Positions 28,279 through 61,332 of a DNA stretch of 64,000 bases are shown in pieces. The stretch spans positions 3,333,001-3,397,000 of the forward strand of contig CP007053.1 of the NCBI GenBank assembly GCA_000242935.3, read 5' to 3'. Position numbers and translations under genes: made by a program. Positions within the stretch are counted from its first letter, which is position 1. Every line of letters starts with the position of its first letter. Source of the DNA: Opitutaceae bacterium TAV5 (GTDB lineage Bacteria > Verrucomicrobiota > Verrucomicrobiia > Opitutales > Opitutaceae). The notes below the pieces were generated by a model. The model saw nothing but the letters and a program-made list of their open reading frames with translations. It was not told the DNA's origin and did no database searches.

Positions 28279-28983
28279 CTATTGGACGCGGGCGTAGGTG
28301 GCTTGGAAGTTGTTGAGACCGGTGTATTGGGTGCTGGCAGCGTCCAGCTCTGCGGTTTTTTTGATACGAGCGGCGCGTGCATCGCAGAAGACGACGTTCA
28401 TGCCGCCCTGGTGGTAGTCAAAGAGCTTGGTGGTGGCGACAAGGTTGCCGGTCTGGTAGGTGTTGAGCGGATCGTGCCGTTCGAGGAGCAGGGCGACGCG
28501 GCTTGGAGTGGAGATGTCGCCGAGCAACATGCCGGTGTTGGCGGCGGGACGCCCCGGACCCCAGATGGTTTCGTTCCGGAATTGGTTGTCGTAGTTGACC
28601 AGCACGGCGTTGATGGAGTAGGAGCGGAGTTCGTCGGGATTGCTGGTGGTGCGGACGATGGTGTCGGCTTTGCAGCGGAGAATGGCGTTGTAGGGGGCTG
28701 AATCGATGTTTTGGCCGGTAAAGGTAGCCATCGCGACGGCATCCCAGCGGGGATTGTTGGAATTGGGCAGGCGTCCCTTGTTTCCATCGGTGTAGAGCAG
28801 GATGGACAGGCCAACCTGGCGCATGTTGCTCATACAGGCGGCGGCGTTGGCTGTCTGGCGAACTCGTCCAACGGTGGGAATGAGGATGGCGGCAAGGATG
28901 CCAATGATGGCAATGACGGTGAGAAGCTCCACAAGTGTGAAGGCGGATGCAGGGTGGTTGTGGCGGTGGGGCATAGGGTGCAT
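28279..28983 (-). CDS. Pseudopilin-like protein with prepilin N-terminal methylation site
   Basis: A 234-residue protein. The N-terminal [18 protein letters not shown] is the prepilin peptidase site plus hydrophobic helix of type II/IV pseudopilins. The C-terminal half is a globular domain ending in a variant of the H-X9-DG motif (YHQGGMNVVFCDAR), typical of the expanded pseudopilin-like families of Verrucomicrobiota and Planctomycetota. Such proteins are processed at the inner membrane; their function is unknown and may concern secretion or surface handling of polysaccharide. A candidate LacI operator lies 65 bp upstream (29048-29061). Confidence 0.9.
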   Translation of the reverse strand: MHPMPHRHNHPASAFTLVELLTVIAIIGILAAILIPTVGRVRQTANAAACMSNMRQVGLSILLYTDGNKGRLPNSNNPRWDAVAMATFTGQNIDSAPYNAILRCKADTIVRTTSNPDELRSYSINAVLVNYDNQFRNETIWGPGRPAANTGMLLGDISTPSRVALLLERHDPLNTYQTGNLVATTKLFDYHQGGMNVVFCDARAARIKKTAELDAASTQYTGLNNFQATYARVQ

Positions 28984-40712: not shown

Positions 40713-41531
40713 TCAGCCCGCTCTCCGACGACGGAAGGCGAATCCGGCCAGCAGAACCAGCGACCCTGCCAGCAGGGCGACAGCTCCGGGTTCGGGGATG
40801 GGCGCGACCTCGACCTTGAGGTTGTCGAGGCCGAGACCGGCGGCAGTTGCGGGCTGGTCGCTGCCCCAGCGGAGCCAGAGATACCCGCCGGCCTGCCAGT
40901 CGAGGCCGGTGAGCGTGACGCTGACCGTCCGGCGATTGTCGTCGGCATTGCCGTTGAGTCCGCTGGCAGAGCCGGTGACCAGGCTGGTGACGTTTCCTTG
41001 CGGGTTCGTCGTATAGCCGGCGGCCGTGAGCTGGCTGCCGCTCTCCGCGGTTGCCAGATAGCTGAACGCCCATGTCGTGGGGTTTGTATTACGTCGCCAC
41101 TGTTCGACATCGAAAGTGAGCGTCACGGAGTCGATGGTGGCTCCGGACGTGTTTTGAAGCTGGAGGCCGAGCCAGGCGGTGGAGGTAAACCCGTCGGCGC
41201 TGCCGGTGAAAAGTCCGAGCGCCCGGTCGGTGCCATCGGACGGGCCCCAGCTGTAAATCGTGCCGCTGGTGGCTTGGGAGCCGGAACTGGCGCGACCGCT
41301 GTTGCTGCCCCCGACGGTCGAATACCAGCCTGCCAGCGTGCTGTTGTTGGTAAAGGTGAAGGTAGTGGTGCCGCTGCCAGAATGGGTGCGAAGCGTATCG
41401 AAGTCCTGGGTGTAGGCATCCGTCCCGTTGAGAGTCGCCTGTGCATGAAGCGCAGGAGAGGCAAGCGTCAGGAGGACGGCGATTGCGGCTGTTGTCGGGA
41501 TGGGCGGGAGGTGGTGCAGTTTCGTTTTCAT
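40713..41531 (-). CDS. PEP-CTERM domain-containing exported protein
   Basis: A 272-residue protein with a signal peptide (TTAAIAVLLTLASPALHA) and a C-terminal sorting tail (PIPEPGAVALLAGSLVLLAG then RRRRAG). The central domain (YTQDFDTLRTHSGSG near the N-terminus, SVTLTFDVEQWRRNT mid-protein, GLGLDNLKVE at the end) is a beta-sandwich seen in many verrucomicrobial exported proteins. It is convergent with the heparinase-like gene and 73 bp downstream of a pseudopilin gene, forming a leftward set with the beta-helix protein at 42389. The function is unknown; polysaccharide binding is likely. Confidence 0.88.
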   Translation of the reverse strand: MKTKLHHLPPIPTTAAIAVLLTLASPALHAQATLNGTDAYTQDFDTLRTHSGSGTTTFTFTNNSTLAGWYSTVGGSNSGRASSGSQATSGTIYSWGPSDGTDRALGLFTGSADGFTSTAWLGLQLQNTSGATIDSVTLTFDVEQWRRNTNPTTWAFSYLATAESGSQLTAAGYTTNPQGNVTSLVTGSASGLNGNADDNRRTVSVTLTGLDWQAGGYLWLRWGSDQPATAAGLGLDNLKVEVAPIPEPGAVALLAGSLVLLAGFAFRRRRAG

Positions 41532-41604: not shown

Positions 41605-42366
41605 CTATTTGTCGAAGCGCCAGAAGGGCGTCTCGTTGGTGGCGTAGTTGGCCTGCATGTCGGCTTTGCTGATGCGCTGCACGTGGCCGTCGATGAAGAC
41701 GACATTGATGCTGTCGCGGTGGACGTACTGGAGAGGAGGGGAGCCACTATCGGGTACGTGACTGTGGCTGACATTGGATACGTAATTGCCGCCGCCCGCG
41801 GCGACCGCGCCGTCCATGAAGAATGCCATGCGCGAGGGATGCTCGATCATCGAAAGGCGGCTGACATAACCCCATTGCGGGTCGCGGTCCTTGAGTCTGG
41901 AGCCGTCGTCCATCGTGGCAGTGGCATAGGTATTGATACTGTAGGTACGGCCAAAATGGATGGACGCGGAGGGCGGATTTTTGAGGAAGCCGGTATCGCA
42001 CTTCATCGGGGAAGGAGTGTTCTTCCAGTCGAGGTTTTTTTGAGCTTTGAAGTTGAGGTAGGGGCTGAGTTGGCCGGACCAGGCATAGTTGCTGGAGCCT
42101 TCGTTGTAACACCATGCTTTGGCATCGGGCATTTTGTCCCGGTTGTCGCCGATCCAGAGCATGGCAGCAGCCTGAAGCTGGCGAAGGTTACTGATGCATT
42201 GCGCGGCGCGGGCGGTTTCGCGGACGCGTCCCACGGTGGGGATGATGATGCCGGCGAGGATGCCGATAATGGCGATGACGGTGAGGAGCTCGATCAGCGT
42301 GAAGGCGGCGCAGCTCCGCCGCGCAGTCCGGAGTTCAGGGTTTCGGGTTGGGAGTCGGGTATGCAT
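41605..42366 (-). CDS. Pseudopilin-like protein with H-X9-DG motif
   Basis: A 253-residue protein from ATG 42366. The prepilin site [19 protein letters not shown] is followed by VGRVRETARAAQCISNLRQL. The C-terminus has the complete H-X9-DG motif (HRDSINVVFIDGHVQRIS), the hallmark of the prepilin-like processing-associated family. It sits between the beta-helix gene (22 bp upstream) and the PEP-CTERM gene on the same strand, probably one operon. Confidence 0.92.
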   Translation of the reverse strand: MHTRLPTRNPELRTARRSCAAFTLIELLTVIAIIGILAGIIIPTVGRVRETARAAQCISNLRQLQAAAMLWIGDNRDKMPDAKAWCYNEGSSNYAWSGQLSPYLNFKAQKNLDWKNTPSPMKCDTGFLKNPPSASIHFGRTYSINTYATATMDDGSRLKDRDPQWGYVSRLSMIEHPSRMAFFMDGAVAAGGGNYVSNVSHSHVPDSGSPPLQYVHRDSINVVFIDGHVQRISKADMQANYATNETPFWRFDK

Positions 42367-42388: not shown

Positions 42389-44191
42389 TCAGTTTTTGGG
42401 CCAGGGCCAGTAAAGGTCGACGCCGGGTCCGGCGGGAGAAGGTTCGGAGCCCCAGGGGAGGGCGCCGATATCAGGACGGGCTGCGCTGTCGGCAGGAGGT
42501 GGATACGAATCGGGCCAGCCGGATTCGAGCGGCAGCCGGCTGCCGCTCGCGCGGGCCGGGCTGTCGGCGGCGGCAAGGCGGGCATCGACCGGGCTGGACG
42601 CGGGATCGGTGAGACGCGGGTCGGCCACGATGCCGGCGGTGGCAAAGGCGGGGTCGATTTCCGCGAGGCGGTTGAGGTCGGCATCCCAGGTGAAGAGGTT
42701 GCCTTCCCAGCGGATGTTGTTGGTGGAGGGTCCCATACCTTCGAAACCGACGGGGGCGGAGCGGCGATTGCGCTGGAAGATGTTGTTGGCGAAGGCGAGG
42801 TCGCGCCAGTTCTCGGGACGGTAGCGCGGGGGGCGGGTGGCGACGAAGACGCTGCGTCCGTTGCTGACGAAGGTGTTCTGGTAAATATAGATGCCATGCG
42901 CACCAGGCCCCCAGTCGTTGCCCATTTTGATCGGATACCCATAACGGCGGGTCTCGCCTTCCACGCGGATCGTATCCGTGGTCTGGATGCGGTTGCGATA
43001 GATATGGATGGGGCCGGGGCGGTCGGAGACGATGCTGATGCCGACGAAAAGTTTGAAGCCGACGTTGTCGTGGAAGCGGAGGTTGGCGGTGTTGTTGGAT
43101 TCGAGTTCGATCATGTCGTCGCTGGTATGATGAACGAGGTTGTGGTGGAGAGTGATGTTGCGGCCCTGGACGCTCATGCCGTCCCAGCCGCCGGCGATTT
43201 CACAGTTGGCGATTTCGGAATCGTCGGCGCGGAGGCGGATGCCGTGGCCGCGCATGGGGGCGGTTTCCTCGTCACTGGAGGAGAGAGTATCGCGGTAGCC
43301 CTGACGCCATTCCCAGTCGAAGTTCCAGAAATTCTGGATACGGCAGCGGCGGATGGTGATGCGGCTGGAGCGATTTTTGATTTCCTCGGTGGAGATGCCG
43401 CGGAAGGCGGTGCGGATGGTGAGGTCTTCGAGCGTGATGTCGGTGACGCCGGAGCCGTTGAGATGGACGCCGGCGAAGCCGGCGTGGCGAAGGGTGAGGC
43501 CGCGGATGATCCAGCCGGTGCTGTCGGTGAGCTGGATGATGCCTTCGGCCGTGCCGATGTTGAGGGGCACGGCGTTGGGGTCGCGTCCGTCGGCGAGGCG
43601 GAGGCGCACTTTTCCTCCCGATCCGCCGGTGCGCCAGAGGGCGTCCCCGCGCGGGCCGCGGAGGAAAAAATCCTCATTGTGGTGCGCGGCGATGAGACGG
43701 TCGTCGGCATGCGAGGCCCACGTGAGCAGGGCCCGCGATTCCCGCGCCGTCCAGGTCCAGGGCACGTCGGCTTCCCAGCCCTGGGCGGGATCGGGGAGCG
43801 GATGCCAGCGGTTGAGGGGGGCGGCGGGGGAGGCGCGCTGGAGTTCGGGGTCGGCGCCGTCGATGATGACGGAGGAGGGGGCGTTATTGGCAGGTTCGAG
43901 CGTGATCGGATTGTCGGCGGGGGCGTGTTTGCCGGTGATGCGGATGTTTTCGTGGTAGATGCCGGGGAGGATCCGGAGGTTGTCTCCGGGTCGGGCGGCA
44001 TCGACGGCGGACTGGAGGGTGGGGAAACGGGCCGGTTGTCGCTGCCCGTTGCGCCAGAGCTCGACCTCGGCGTGCAGGAGGGCGGGAAGAACCAGGGCGA
44101 GGAAAACAAAAGCCGCGGCGACAGAGGGCAGGCACACGGGAGAGAGCCGGGCCGGCGATACAGGGCGGTGGTTGCGGGGGATGGATAACAT
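42389..44191 (-). CDS. Exported right-handed beta-helix protein (putative polysaccharide lyase)
   Basis: A 600-residue protein from ATG 44191 with a signal peptide (VAAAFVFLALVLPALLHA). It begins with the usual beta-helix entry FPTLQSAVDAARPGDNLRILPG and IYHENIRITGKHA, then successive parallel beta-helix turns (GWIIRGLTLRHAGFAGVHLN, ITLEDLTIRTAFRGIS, ITLHHNLVHHTSDDMIELE). This layout is found in pectate lyase-like and DUF1565-type exported enzymes acting on uronate polysaccharides. The catalytic residues are not obvious. It is divergent from the double-AraC regulator with two palindromes between them, which suggests control by that protein. Confidence 0.8.
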   Translation of the reverse strand: MLSIPRNHRPVSPARLSPVCLPSVAAAFVFLALVLPALLHAEVELWRNGQRQPARFPTLQSAVDAARPGDNLRILPGIYHENIRITGKHAPADNPITLEPANNAPSSVIIDGADPELQRASPAAPLNRWHPLPDPAQGWEADVPWTWTARESRALLTWASHADDRLIAAHHNEDFFLRGPRGDALWRTGGSGGKVRLRLADGRDPNAVPLNIGTAEGIIQLTDSTGWIIRGLTLRHAGFAGVHLNGSGVTDITLEDLTIRTAFRGISTEEIKNRSSRITIRRCRIQNFWNFDWEWRQGYRDTLSSSDEETAPMRGHGIRLRADDSEIANCEIAGGWDGMSVQGRNITLHHNLVHHTSDDMIELESNNTANLRFHDNVGFKLFVGISIVSDRPGPIHIYRNRIQTTDTIRVEGETRRYGYPIKMGNDWGPGAHGIYIYQNTFVSNGRSVFVATRPPRYRPENWRDLAFANNIFQRNRRSAPVGFEGMGPSTNNIRWEGNLFTWDADLNRLAEIDPAFATAGIVADPRLTDPASSPVDARLAAADSPARASGSRLPLESGWPDSYPPPADSAARPDIGALPWGSEPSPAGPGVDLYWPWPKN

Positions 44192-44241
44192 CGAGGGCAA
44201 CGATAACCCGAATCGGGGCTGCGGACAATTTTCCTTGCCTG

Positions 44242-44295
44242 CAAAAATTCAATTTTTGTCTCATTTCCGGACAGAAAGCCGGACTCCCGGAAAAT
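44242..44295. promoter_or_regulatory. Two palindromes in the beta-helix / double-AraC divergent promoter
   Basis: CAAAAATTCAATTTTTG (44242-44258) is a perfect 17-bp palindrome with a single central base. Further right, ATTTCCGG (44263-44270) and CCGGAAAAT (44287-44295) form an interrupted inverted repeat ending just before the regulator's ATG at 44299. The arrangement suits binding by a regulator with two DNA-binding domains. Confidence 0.5.
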
Positions 44296-44298
44296 TTC

Positions 44299-46092
44299 AT
44301 GACCAGATTTTGCACGACCTGTTGTGACCGTGAGGCGCTGGAAAAGGCGGCCGGACGGGTGCTGTTCGGGTTGGCGGCGTGCAGGCGGATCGGATGGCGA
44401 GGGGCTGTCGTGGTTGCCGGAGAGCAGGAGAGAGGGAAGAGGGGGCGGGTCTCCGGCGATGCGACGGTGCGGCAGGTGGTGTGGTTGCGGGGGCAGGTGA
44501 CGTTCGGCACGATGCGACTGGAGCCGGGATCGGTGTGGAGGCCGGGCGTGACAGATCGTTTCGGGCGGGAGGAGGAAAAGGCGGCGGAGAGGGCAGGGGC
44601 ATCGGGACTGGAGTTCACCTTCGCCGGACCGCTGGCGGCGGATTATGTGAATTTTCTCGAGGAGAATTTCGGGCGGATGGTGCGGTTGCCGCCGGGCTCT
44701 CCTGCTTTGCGGGCGGCGCGGGCGCTGGCGGCGGCCGCGGAGGCGGGGGCGAGGCGCGAGGTGATGTCGAGGCGGGTGTTCGGATGGCTGGCGGCGCTGC
44801 ACGAGACGCTGGAAGAGCGGCAGGTGCACCTGCAGGATTTGCTGAGAGGGCGAATCGATCACCTGTTGCCCGAGGGGGCGGCGCACGGGTATTCGGTGAA
44901 GGCGCTGGCGGCGCATCTGGGTTGCACACCGGGGTGGCTGGCGCGGCGGCTGCAGCAGGCGTGGCGGCGCCCGGCCGGGGAGGTGTTGCATGCGCTGCGG
45001 CTGCAGCACGCGCGGGAGTTGCTGGCCACGACAGGGGCGGGAGCGGGAGAGGTGGCGTGGCGGTGCGGGTTTGCATCGGCGTCGTCGTTTTCCAAGGCGT
45101 TTCGCCGGGCCATGGGCATGACGCCGACGCAGGCGCGTGTCCTCGGGAAAAAGGGGACGGGCGGGAGAGGGACGAAGGCGGGCGGGAATGCGATCATGCG
45201 GGTGATGGAAGAGAGGCGGAGGAGAGGGCCGACAGAGCTGCGGGTGCTGCCGGCAGGGGAGGATGTGATGGCGGCAACGGTATGGGGCGGAGCCTACTTC
45301 CAGTGCGACGGGGGTGAGACGGACAAGGCCTACAACATGCCGTTCGATATTTCGATCAACAAGATCACGCGGGGTATCCACTGGGTGGTGACGCTGGAGG
45401 GGGAGGCGGTGTTCGAGACCGGAGGGTATTCGCTGACGGTGCATCCGGGGATGGTGGTGGTGTATTCCAGCCCGTCGAAGGGGCGCTGGATGACACCGTC
45501 GGGGAGGCCGTGGCGACGGGTGTGGGTGAAGGTGCGTTGCGACTGGGGCAATGAGGCGTTGCTGGCATTGGGCACGGCACACGGTTGGGCGGCGATGGTG
45601 CCGCTGGCGTCGCGTCCGGTGAGGCTGGCGAGGCAGTGCGTGCGCGAATGGAACGAGCACCGGAACAGGCCGTCGGTTGAAATGTCGCGTTCGGGTTACG
45701 AATGGTTGCTGGCGTGGTGGGAACTGCTGCATTCGGGGCGAGTGCGCCCGCTGGTCGATGCGCGCGGGCAGGCGGTGTTGCCGGACATGCGAGAGGTGGC
45801 GTTGCCGTCGTTTTTCCGGCGTATCAAGACGATCACGGGTTACGCGAAACAGATCGGCTATTCGCGTTCGCACACGATGCGGAAACTGAGCGAACAATGG
45901 AAGGGCGGGACGCCGGCGCAGATTATCCGACGGCAGCGGCTGGCCCAGGCGGCGCTGGACCTGCGAAGGACGCGGCTGCCGGTAGTCGAAATCGCACGAC
46001 GCTCGCAGTTCGCTTCGGCAGGGAGTTTTATCCCGGCGTTCAGGCGCGAGTTCGGCATGACGCCGCTGGCGTACCGGCTGGCGCAGATTTGA
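44299..46092 (+). CDS. Tandem double AraC family transcriptional regulator
   Basis: A 597-residue protein that contains two complete AraC-type units in one frame. Unit 1: a sensor region (residues 1-190) and an HTH pair (YSVKALAAHLGCTPGWLARR, VAWRCGFASASSFSKAFRR, GMTPTQARVLG; about 195-280). A Gly/Lys linker (about 281-298) leads to unit 2: a cupin-like sensor (INKITRGIHWVVTLEGEAVF, GGYSLTVHPGMVVVYSSP; about 315-420) and a second HTH pair (about 500-597) ending FRREFGMTPLAYRLAQI. No stop separates them; the M at about residue 299 would have been the old start. It looks like a fusion of two neighbouring regulators and is divergent from the beta-helix gene. A fragment of its 3' end is duplicated at 52213-52278. 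Confidence 0.85.
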   Translation: MTRFCTTCCDREALEKAAGRVLFGLAACRRIGWRGAVVVAGEQERGKRGRVSGDATVRQVVWLRGQVTFGTMRLEPGSVWRPGVTDRFGREEEKAAERAGASGLEFTFAGPLAADYVNFLEENFGRMVRLPPGSPALRAARALAAAAEAGARREVMSRRVFGWLAALHETLEERQVHLQDLLRGRIDHLLPEGAAHGYSVKALAAHLGCTPGWLARRLQQAWRRPAGEVLHALRLQHARELLATTGAGAGEVAWRCGFASASSFSKAFRRAMGMTPTQARVLGKKGTGGRGTKAGGNAIMRVMEERRRRGPTELRVLPAGEDVMAATVWGGAYFQCDGGETDKAYNMPFDISINKITRGIHWVVTLEGEAVFETGGYSLTVHPGMVVVYSSPSKGRWMTPSGRPWRRVWVKVRCDWGNEALLALGTAHGWAAMVPLASRPVRLARQCVREWNEHRNRPSVEMSRSGYEWLLAWWELLHSGRVRPLVDARGQAVLPDMREVALPSFFRRIKTITGYAKQIGYSRSHTMRKLSEQWKGGTPAQIIRRQRLAQAALDLRRTRLPVVEIARRSQFASAGSFIPAFRREFGMTPLAYRLAQI

Positions 46093-46272: not shown

Positions 46273-46656
46273 TCAGACAATCCCAGGTTTGTCGTCGAAT
46301 GGGTTGATCAGCTTCAGGCCAGGCACATGCCGGAAGTCGTCCACGTTTCGGGTGACCAGCTCCCAGTCGTATGCGAGCGCTGTCGCGGCGATAATGGCGT
46401 CGGCAAGACCGGTGTTGCGCTGTTGGCGAATGGCAATGGCCCGGGTGACCACTTCGTCATCGAGCGAGAGTTCGGTCGCTTCAGCCAAGAAGAGCTGGAG
46501 ATCGGCCAGTTCTTCGGAGGTGATGCGGTGATAGCCCAGAACCTCGATGCGGGATACGACGGAGATGCCGAAAGGCTCCGTTTCCAGCCAGAGGCGCAGC
46601 CAGTCCTGATCGGGACGGGTGGCATAGATGAGAATGTTGCTGTCGAGCAGCCTCAT
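46273..46656 (-). CDS. PIN domain toxin, VapC type
   Basis: A 127-residue PIN-domain ribonuclease. The acidic active site residues are visible in LLDSNILIYA (Asp5), the GISVVSRIEVLGY glutamate, GLADAIIAATAL (Asp) and ELVTRNVDDF (Asp). Such toxins cut RNA (tRNA or rRNA) and are blocked by a partner antitoxin. Its ATG overlaps the stop of the upstream gene by one base (TAATG), the normal toxin-antitoxin arrangement with the antitoxin first. Confidence 0.9.
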   Translation of the reverse strand: MRLLDSNILIYATRPDQDWLRLWLETEPFGISVVSRIEVLGYHRITSEELADLQLFLAEATELSLDDEVVTRAIAIRQQRNTGLADAIIAATALAYDWELVTRNVDDFRHVPGLKLINPFDDKPGIV

Positions 46657-46931
46657 TATTCGCGTCCGGGCAATTGCCGGTCACGGCGCGTTTCGCGTTG
46701 CCAGGAAACGGGATCCTGGTCGCGGAAGGGCGACAGGCCGCCGCGAGCGGCGATCCGGCGCAGGGCGTCGAAAGCATGTTTCCTGCGGTCAGCCACAGGG
46801 GGCGTTCCGGTGTCGGGTACGGGCGTGAGAATGGCGGTGACCTGTACCTTGCCATGTCGCATCCCGGACGGCACCGGCAAATGCAAGGTGCCGGTTGCAT
46901 CCGGTTCCAGGATGACAGTGATCGTGCTCAT
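46656..46931 (-). CDS. Antitoxin of the VapC-type pair
   Basis: A 91-residue protein from ATG 46931. The N-terminal STITVILEPDATGTLHLP followed by VPSGMRHGKVQVTAIL is a swapped-hairpin-like DNA-binding/antitoxin pattern often found upstream of PIN toxins. The rest (HAFDALRRIAARGG) is helical and likely wraps the toxin. The frame stays open further upstream, but the M at 46931 matches the conserved start of the family. Confidence 0.8.
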   Translation of the reverse strand: MSTITVILEPDATGTLHLPVPSGMRHGKVQVTAILTPVPDTGTPPVADRRKHAFDALRRIAARGGLSPFRDQDPVSWQRETRRDRQLPGRE

Positions 46932-47121
46932 GACGTTGAAGGTTGCGAGAAACCTGTCCGGGTCAAGTTTGCTGCCGGACCCGGCGGGGTGCGGCGCAGT
47001 CGATATCGGGGCTCGCACGACAAAACCGGCTGCCCTCGGGGGAGTGGCTTTCGTACCGGCCCCGGATGAGGGAGGTATGTGGCTGGCAAGCCGAAGCTTT
47101 GGCCAGGCAGCCAGAAGACGG

Positions 47122-58987: not shown

Positions 58988-59695
58988 TTATTGGCCTTTT
59001 GGGATGGGCCAGCGGTAGTTACCACCAGTCGTGAATCCCTGTGTCTTGTCGTAGAGGACCCATTTGACGGAGCCGTCTGCGTAGCCTGCGTTCATACCGG
59101 TGGGGCGAACGCCTTTCTTCCGATCAACGTCATGCCCAAGATTCCCGGCAGATATCATGTAGGTAAGACAACCCCACATCGCGTATTCCAAGGGAGGATT
59201 ATTGAGATTCTCGAAGCGCATGGCTTTTGCTTTTGGAGGCAAGCTCCCTGAGCCTTCCTTTCGGTTGAAATACTGGTAACTCATATATTGCGAGGTGGAG
59301 TTGCTTGCCCGCAGCTTTTCGGGGTTGTAAGAGTCATCCCTGGCGATGGCTCCAGGACAGTAAAGCGCATGAAAACGATCACCAAGATAGGGCCGCAAAC
59401 AACGATCGTAGGCATTGGGATCCATCTGGTTTGGAACACCATCAAAGTTTGGCGCAGCGTCGGTGCCATAAGGGTAAGGTGGCCTGCCGCGATTTTCGTT
59501 ACCGTAGGTGATGCTCGCAATGACGAGCTGGCGAACCTTGACAGTGCATTGAGCTCGACGCGCGCTTTCGCGGACTTTGCTGACTGTCGGGATGATAATC
59601 GCCGCTAAAATGCCAATGATGGCGATAACGGTGAGCAACTCGATCAGCGTGAAGCCGTGTGCGTTGCGAGGGGCGGGGTGTGTTTGCGGGTGCAT
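58988..59695 (-). CDS. Pseudopilin-like protein, copy 1 of a tandem pair
   Basis: A 235-residue protein from ATG 59695. The prepilin signature [20 protein letters not shown] and VSKVRESARRAQCTVKVRQL are typical. The C-terminal end lacks the His of H-X9-DG (GMNAGYADGSVKWVLYD). The first about 95 bp of the gene plus leader are 92% identical over 132 bp to the start of the next gene (60361-60492), so the two arose by tandem duplication with diverged bodies. Confidence 0.9.
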   Translation of the reverse strand: MHPQTHPAPRNAHGFTLIELLTVIAIIGILAAIIIPTVSKVRESARRAQCTVKVRQLVIASITYGNENRGRPPYPYGTDAAPNFDGVPNQMDPNAYDRCLRPYLGDRFHALYCPGAIARDDSYNPEKLRASNSTSQYMSYQYFNRKEGSGSLPPKAKAMRFENLNNPPLEYAMWGCLTYMISAGNLGHDVDRKKGVRPTGMNAGYADGSVKWVLYDKTQGFTTGGNYRWPIPKGQ

Positions 59696-59750: not shown

Positions 59751-60455
59751 TCAGAGAAGATCCCAGAGGTCGTTGTTGGTGGTAAAAGGTGTGTCGGGTT
59801 TTTCCGAAGTGACGTGGCCGTCGAGCCAGAGAACGTTGCAGGTTTGGCCTGGGTGACGGAAGTCCATGATGCCAGTTTCTCCGGGAAGCGTGGTCTTCCA
59901 TTTCCCATAAGAAGGCTGGCGGACAAACACACGCCATTTGTCGGCGGGAGCCCGGTAGTTATCGGTCATACGCACGGTTCTGGAGGGAGTGGCAACGGCG
60001 TTCATTTTGAGCAAGGGGCGCGCGATGGAACTGCCGTTGGTGGGAGAAATGAGCACGTTGATGCCGTAACCGAAGGCTTCCGGCCCGGCGCCGAGTCCAG
60101 GACAGAGGAACACGGGTACGTCGGTGTAGTTTGCCAGCGGTTCAGTGCCGGTGCGTCCGATATAGGGAGCGAGCAGGGAGGGCCAGTGTTGTGCATTGAA
60201 AGGATTGGGCCTGTCTTCCTTGCTGTTGTGGATGGGGAGAATGTCGCCTTTGCGGTCTTCGCTCCACATCGCGGCGGCGACACCGATCTGGCGAAGGTTG
60301 GATTTGCATTGCGCGGAGCGCGCCGTCGCGCGGACACGACCAACGGTCGGAATAATGATCGCCGCCAGGATGCCGATGATGGCGATAACGGTGAGCAACT
60401 CGATCAGCGTGAAGCCGTGTGCCTTGCGAGGGGCGAGGTGTGTTTGCGGGTGCAC
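59751..60455 (-). CDS. Pseudopilin-like protein, copy 2 of a tandem pair
   Basis: A 234-residue protein from a GTG at 60455, at the position that aligns with the ATG of copy 1. The prepilin signature [20 protein letters not shown] is followed by [20 protein letters not shown]. The C-terminal end has an H-X10-DG version ([18 protein letters not shown]) of the usual motif. Apart from the start region the protein differs strongly from copy 1. Confidence 0.88.
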
Positions 60456-60528: not shown

Positions 60529-61332
60529 TTACCGGCGCCGGAGGCAGGCGACGGCAAGTCCGGCGATACCTGCAAGGATCACCCATGTGGCAGGTTCGGG
60601 GACTGCAGTAACGGTGCCGGTGAGTTCCGTGCCTTTGCCGACGAAATAGGCCATCTGGCTGGAATGCCGCTCTGTTGTTTCGATAAACGCATAGATCCGG
60701 AAGGCGACAGAGGTGTCGATGTTCTGGAAATCAGCGAGCGAGGCGAAATCGATCGTCACCGTGCTGAGGGAGACACTGGTACCGCTGCCACTGGCCCCGG
60801 CTGCTTTGGCTGACCGTGAGGAGGTCGTATCGGCGATGAGTTCCTGATAACTCTGGAAGTCATCAAAGCTGGCGCGCACAAAGAAATGAACCGTGAAGGC
60901 AGCGACAGCGGTCTCGGTGGAGACGGAACCGCGTTGATTGCCGAGCTTCAGGGTCAGTTTGTCGAGGGAGAGCACATCGCTGTTTGTCGGGGTGAGGGAG
61001 AATTCGACGTAATCCCCCAGCGTAAGGGCGTCGTCTTTGGACGTGGCTAAGAATCCCACACCGGTAGAATTGGCCGCACGGCTGAAATAACCATTGGTGT
61101 TGGAGCCATATCGCCCGTCATCCGCACCGGTGAAATCCCCGGGCGCCAGGGAAGAAACGTCAAGATTGTCAACCGGTGTGGCGGACGACGAGGTGGAGGA
61201 ACCCGCAAAGTCGAACAACGCCAGCGTTTGCGATTGCGCATGGGCGATTGTGAGCGGGGCGAGGCTGGCGGTGGCGATCAGCAATGAAGCGACTGTGCGC
61301 CGAAGCAGTGAGGTGCGGAGGTATGATTTCAT
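60529..61332 (-). CDS. PEP-CTERM domain-containing exported protein
   Basis: A 267-residue protein with a signal peptide ([19 protein letters not shown]), a beta-rich central region (TLTLKLGN-like strands, [20 protein letters not shown]) and the sorting tail [20 protein letters not shown] with LRRR. It is the first gene of a leftward cluster (two pseudopilins, an exported hypothetical protein, a heparinase-like lyase) and is divergent from the LacI gene at 61487. A small palindrome CATAATGTTATG (61330-61341) overlaps its start codon and may be an operator. Confidence 0.88.

Follow-up and report, generated by a model that had tools for sequence, protein, structure and literature searches.

AraC-type regulators usually consist of one unit and many of them dimerise, the dimers being made of two identical chains that often sit on asymmetric DNA. 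The locus studied here raises the question of what a regulator does when two such units are written into one polypeptide. Below we report the analysis of 64,000 nucleotides, called the window, which correspond to positions 3333001-3397000 of a 7,317,842-bp contig in a genome of two contigs and 7,417,673 bases. The genome is that of Opitutaceae bacterium strain TAV5, a strain from termite hindgut with a chromosome of 7,317,842 bp and a plasmid of 99,831 bp (PMC4358385).

Two AraC units in one reading frame

The frame at 44299..46092 on the plus strand encodes 597 aa without internal stop, and the initial annotation, made from the sequence alone, had read it as two complete AraC regulators in one polypeptide. 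Our analysis bears out this reading. Two stretches of the protein match PF12833 (HTH_18; 1.7e-36, 124.8 bits against a cut-off of 33.6) and two match PF00165 (HTH_AraC; 62.6 bits against a cut-off of 26.6), so that with its HTH domains above the curated cut-off the protein belongs to the AraC/XylS DNA-binding family. Both HTH_18 places are located in the same frame, at chromosome 3377905-3378138 and 3378841-3379077, and the full-length model gives the order sensor, HTH, a low-confidence stretch (residues 286-332), sensor and HTH. In the N half, models and a weak fold match point with low confidence to a sensor region of cupin-like strands and helices (residues 56-182, 44464..44844), followed by a DNA-binding domain (residues 185-285, 44851..45153). 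The C half comprises a cupin sensor, AraC/BgaR-like by model and fold match (residues 330-490, 45286..45768), and a second DNA-binding domain (residues 500-597, 45796..46089). Between the two units there is a linker (residues 286-329, 45154..45285) with Gly at 8 of its 44 residues, in agreement with the Gly-rich joint first noticed; the homolog comparison, the model and the substitution rates all show it as variable.

The HTH_18 scan of the own genome gives 106 matches, and by eye only two frames have two separate domains, namely the window gene and a 627-aa frame at 241752-242951, while in one more frame the two matches overlap (also by eye). The same scan gives 25 matches in one other species (G103) and 45 in another (G068), with one two-domain frame in each, which is the tandem gene. 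With so few two-domain frames, the architecture is therefore rare in the three scanned genomes. HTH_18 is above the cut-off in both halves of all four tandem genes checked in these genomes.

Relatives of the tandem protein

The 627-aa frame is a full-length paralog, 60% identical over residues 7-596. A search with the single protein against 57 relatives (E<=1e-30) finds matches in the own genome and in G001, which represents a second species of this genus, and in none of the 35 other family genomes. Four matches belong to this second species. L009 is 80% identical and truncated where its contig ends, L010 and L012 are pieces, also at contig ends, of what appears to be the paralog's ortholog, and L011 is a diverged copy, 37% identical over residues 95-594, in a frame of 642 aa. 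Directly downstream of this diverged copy another AraC protein, which looks XylR-like, is present (L037 4895-6058).

With a profile of three full-length proteins, 9 of 273 genomes of the order match at E<=1e-22. Among them, the own genome and six others (G057, G068, G074, G103, G105 and G168) have full-length homologs in a single frame, and G127 and G160 have half-length homologs. In the phylum, 7 of 387 genomes match at E<=1e-28, and all five with full-length matches belong to the same order; G440 has a single gene like the C half, and the match in G515 is cut by a contig end. The fusion reported initially in one gene is thus found in the own-genome paralog and in six further genomes of the 273, besides the diverged copy in the second species. 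Overall, we count ten reading frames with a pair of HTH domains, including one that is truncated where its contig ends. The carriers include Cerasicoccus arenae (G103), Coraliomargarita sp. SDUM461004 (G068) and two MAGs (G074 and G057), and the join is common to the termite-gut TAV5 and marine relatives. This patchy spread could be due to loss or to transfer. In one carrier locus the tandem gene is followed directly by an ORF of 153 aa (L031 7466-7927), whose HTH match marks yet another AraC DNA-binding domain.

Evolution and selection of the two halves

The tree has 53 rows, consisting of the 18 halves of nine tandem proteins and 35 single-unit AraC rows from the fetched loci; 44 of 55 HTH-matching frames are used, and the 11 dropped are partial or short frames, three from the window, L006 and L008. 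The nine N halves group together (93/92) and so do the nine C halves (100/100), and when they are counted only against each other, every bootstrap tree has a branch that splits one set from the other. Seven single AraC rows (L003 of TAV5, G440, G515, two of G127 and two of G160) join the C halves with a support of 100/98, and the branching point of the N halves is weakly supported (40/68). The separate grouping of the halves therefore fits one old fusion as the origin of the tandem protein. A recent internal duplication is unsupported, since the N and C halves group apart, and the halves may or may not be ancient duplicates, the fork above both having a support of 40/68. The single regulator L003 lies in TAV5 chromosome 2236000-2248000 (L095), beside a protein that by eye looks like a LamG/PEP-CTERM protein, with pseudopilin-like and secreted proteins nearby.

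The two halves are conserved to different degrees. With the close paralog set aside, the identity to the window protein is 38-47% in the C half and 24-28% in the N half. For the sensors, the seven homologs beyond the close paralog have 34-48% in the C half and 24-30% in the N half, the N sensor being the least conserved folded part. The dN/dS values, estimated by the Nei-Gojobori method, are 0.14, 0.12 and 0.23 for the N-half HTH and 0.12, 0.07 and 0.30 for the C-half HTH, and reach 0.74 and 0.77 in the linker, which is nearly free. In the C sensor they are 0.19, 0.29 (a value that takes in some of the linker) and 0.43, and in the N sensor 0.34 between orthologs and 0.46. By these substitution rates, purifying selection acts on the DNA-binding domains of both halves; the two domains are thus maintained, and the joint is a loose tether.

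Predicted structure of the sensors

The full-length model has a mean pLDDT of 64.6 and a pTM of 0.54. In the C half, the sensor fold matches the lactose sensor BgaR with Z 14.6 (152 residues, 3.1 A) and AraC with Z 12.7 and 12.3, so the modelled C-half sensor resembles sugar-sensing AraC cupins. The N half modelled alone has a pLDDT of 67.6, with residues 1-54 and 84-99 below 50, and its best match is to AraC-family DNA-binding domains (Z 11.9). Its sensor fold matches ExsA (Z 8.1), BgaR (7.7) and AraC (7.5) weakly, in a range flagged for merely common arrangements. The Pfam family AraC_binding is found in two homologs and is absent from the window protein.

Genes beside the tandem regulator

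Three genes on the minus strand are divergent from the tandem regulator. The nearest (42389..44191) encodes a secreted right-handed beta-helix protein, for which the ATG at 44191 is proposed as start, the frame being open also from a TTG at 44200. The others, recognised by domain matches and tblastn, encode a pseudopilin-like protein (41605..42366) with N_methyl, and DUF1559 just under the cut-off, and a secreted PEP-CTERM-like protein of the 'TQDFDTL...GWYST' type (40713..41531). In the models of the PEP-CTERM sorting signal the latter scores above one cut-off, with 17.6 bits for TIGR02595 (cut-off 16), and below the other, with 17.9 bits for PF07589 (cut-off 20.7), and its Cerasicoccus homolog is under the cut-off for both. 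By sequence no solved relative that would suggest an enzyme class for the beta-helix protein is found (best E 0.02).

The tblastn results show that all four proteins occur together in the window and in five genomes (L028, L029, L030, L031 and L032), with identities of 49-51% for the beta-helix protein, 41-46% for the pseudopilin, 41-49% for the PEP-CTERM-like protein and 36-37% for the regulator. In four of the five, no gene lies between the regulator and the divergent beta-helix gene; in Coraliomargarita (L029) the PEP-CTERM-like gene does. Searching the 273 genomes with the beta-helix protein gives eight genomes at E<=1e-20, of which seven reach E<=1e-80 and coincide with the seven carriers of the tandem AraC, the eighth being G005 with 6.5e-22. 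The homologs of 49-53% identity adjoin the tandem gene in five other genomes, four directly and Coraliomargarita one gene away, and more distant matches are found three times in the own genome (37-39%) and once in Coraliomargarita (38%). A second and more distant pair of beta-helix and PEP-CTERM-like genes is located beside the Coraliomargarita cassette (L029 10-1695).

The remaining loci vary. The paralog locus (L036) and its ortholog in the second species (L039) have the pseudopilin (70-71%) and the PEP-CTERM-like protein (49-52%), with no beta-helix match in the fetched stretch, which is 13.9 kb at the own-genome paralog. In G168 (L033) the regulator, a PEP-CTERM-like protein (52%) and a weak pseudopilin match (25%) share one region of a rearranged cassette, and the beta-helix homolog (37%) is on another contig. 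The diverged copy L011 faces an autotransporter-like protein; its stretch (L037) includes a pseudopilin-like match of 82 aa and encodes a beta-helix protein to which that of the window has no match at E<=1e-6. At the locus of the 80% homolog (L038) the upstream side is off the contig.

Other genes of the window are also worth recording. Downstream of the tandem gene on the minus strand, a PIN-domain protein (46273-46656) and a small upstream ORF without Pfam family match (46656-47018) look like a VapBC-type toxin-antitoxin pair. N_methyl pseudopilin-like genes are divergent from a LacI-type regulator twice (35030-35695/35759-36931 and 47122-47913/47983-49062), so the pairing of pseudopilin and regulator recurs in the window. 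Further pseudopilin-like matches are among 28282-28983, 59477-59692, 60159-60452 and 60532-61332, the last position holding a PEP-CTERM protein.

The conserved upstream element

For eight loci, with the ortholog L012 and G168 left out, the 110 nt that precede the regulator were searched for an ungapped 16-mer. One element is recovered in all eight, a candidate operator at 44242..44258 of the window, where it forms the perfect dyad CAAAAATT-C-AATTTTTG. Its information is 14.4 bits against 9.9 (sd 0.47, maximum 10.8) in 40 dinucleotide shuffles, although the loci are related and the statistics overstate their independence. Widths of 12 and 20 also beat the shuffles, misplacing one and two loci respectively. 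We also considered whether the element recurs as a direct repeat of constant period and dropped the idea, as the spacing differs by eye between the aligned rows, and the upstream region of the G168 homolog has no element clear to the eye.

The initial annotation had described two different palindromes in this promoter and matched them with the two DNA-binding units. Both are indeed present in the window, the second (TTTCCGG...CCGGAAA) at 44264-44293, but only the first element is conserved. The second occurs in one of ten upstream regions, that of the window, and in none of the nine homologous ones. Pairing in the first is complete in the window (8 of 8 pairs), against 2-5 of 8 in the remaining eight rows, so even the perfect palindrome is confined to the window. 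Since the second palindrome is private to the window, the pairing of two palindromes with two HTH units is not supported. The length of the strongly conserved DNA corresponds to what we take to be one AraC footprint (16-22 bp) and not two.

The position of the element is informative. On the side of the divergent gene, the conservation in eight rows is 0.649 against 0.304 (sd 0.042), above all 1000 rolled controls. An AT-rich hexamer (44227..44232, minus strand), a candidate -10 box of the divergent operon, is located 11 nt beyond the element on this side, in register by eye in nine aligned loci. In eight of nine loci the distance from the element to the divergent in-frame ATG is 52 (window), 50, 50, 51, 74 (G074), 57, 50 and 50 nt, with the start codons chosen after the element was known; Coraliomargarita, with 169 nt, is a misfit. 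The distance to the AraC start is 30-65, and the divergent gene is, depending on the locus, of the beta-helix, pseudopilin or autotransporter-like type. With the divergent distance nearly fixed in most loci over three kinds of gene and the regulator distance variable, we therefore read the element as an activator site of the divergent promoter, whose -35 position it would overlap.

Elsewhere in the own genome, the element pattern with at most two mismatches has 11 sites, against 3 for the reversed control. Three of the 11 belong to the two tandem loci, and four of the other eight were inspected. The sole site with one mismatch (L091 position 3017, TAV5 chromosome 4731516) lies on the 3' side of the gene for a distantly related PEP-CTERM-like paralog (30% identity), and a pilin-like match is found close by. 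Two sites with two mismatches immediately precede genes that show no obvious connection with the cassette, one of them ftsZ-like by eye, and the fourth gives nothing clear. These four of the eight extra sites show no regulon beyond the cassette.

A possible built-in dimer and its alternatives

Taken together, we consider it probable, though by no means assured, that the covalently joined pair of non-identical AraC units is a built-in (pseudo-)dimer dedicated to the cassette of secreted and surface proteins. We favour this because two DNA-binding domains are maintained, the halves form separate groups, the four-gene neighbourhood recurs and the upstream element is conserved. The C-half cupin would bind a sugar-like ligand, the modelled fold making the C unit the likely sugar-responsive sensor. 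The liganded chain would then bind the element overlapping the presumed -35 box, and, acting as class II AraC activators do, may switch on the genes for the beta-helix protein, the pseudopilin and the PEP-CTERM-like protein. The N unit would mainly supply the second DNA-binding domain and make a second subunit unnecessary. We count against the pseudo-dimer the conservation of one footprint, the distances of 169 nt in Coraliomargarita and 74 nt in G074, G168 without a clear element, the paralog without a beta-helix gene, L011 facing another gene, the element matches upstream of unrelated genes and the low pLDDT of the full-length model. A stronger form, which we put forward tentatively and hold to be rather doubtful, is that these proteins are a class of obligate covalent AraC heterodimers, in which C senses, N is a permanent DNA-binding partner and recognition of an asymmetric operator is hard-wired, kept since a single order-level fusion as the cognate switch of the cassette.

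Among the alternatives, the most probable is the one raised in the initial annotation, a two-signal integrator in which each half has its own ligand and its own site. In its favour, each half retains an HTH and a region large enough for a sensor, and the N sensor is under some purifying selection between orthologs and aligns weakly to AraC-type cupins; however, the single conserved element, the confinement of the second palindrome to the window and the lower identity of the N sensor across the seven homologs make this unlikely. Still less probable is that regulation is by the C unit alone, the N unit being an inert or autoinhibitory appendage. The faster evolution of the N half and the weaker match of its sensor would suit such a role, but the dN/dS of 0.12-0.23 in its HTH and the HTH_18 scores of both halves in the four tandem genes would not. 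We give little chance to a second product, the C half translated also from an internal start at Met 300 or 303: ATG codons are present in the linkers of the window gene and several homologs, but, counting Met codons only, the L028 and L029 linkers have none, and by eye the window sequence has no strong ribosome site. Finally, that a lost stop codon or a sequencing or assembly error fused two genes is next to impossible and is rejected, since single-frame homologs in the own genome (60% identity) and in other assemblies (32-37%), full-length in 7 other genomes, exclude chance and error and contradict a stop between the units.

Comparison with known systems

In passages of a survey of the partner domains of transcription-factor families, AraC-AraC fusions are unmentioned (PMC5882156). 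Our keyword searches of the open-access literature give, among the matches listed, no paper that deals with fused AraC pairs or with this cassette. A naturally occurring pair in one chain, its halves diverged, would allow experiments on how sensing and binding are divided between the halves and on how symmetry is lost, and the conserved element with the recurrent cassette is a handle on little-studied secreted and surface proteins of these bacteria.

Two known systems resemble the locus in part. Verru_Chthon comprises verrucomicrobial cassettes with pilin-like proteins, and its models match the pseudopilins weakly, with scores far under the cut-off (TIGR02596, 24.6 against 70 in the window; TIGR02599, 18.2 against 256.5 in Cerasicoccus), which places them outside it. 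The YSIRK-adjacent AraC regulator (TIGR04094) is likewise AraC-type and named for surface-protein genes, and matches one HTH weakly, but with 30.7 bits against a cut-off of 200 membership is ruled out. The single AraC proteins of TAV5 (L003), G440, G515, G127 and G160 are, of the proteins found in this analysis, closest in sequence to the C half, and the loci of L003 and G440 have pseudopilin-like genes nearby as in the cassette; they differ in having other partner genes and, G515 with its cut frame aside, one unit per frame. With the AraC/XylS family, including AraC, BgaR, RhaR and ToxT, the tandem protein shares HTH_18, the divergent gene, by its modelled fold the C-half cupin and, probably, a class II-like placement of the element, while unlike them it has two whole sensor-HTH units in one chain.
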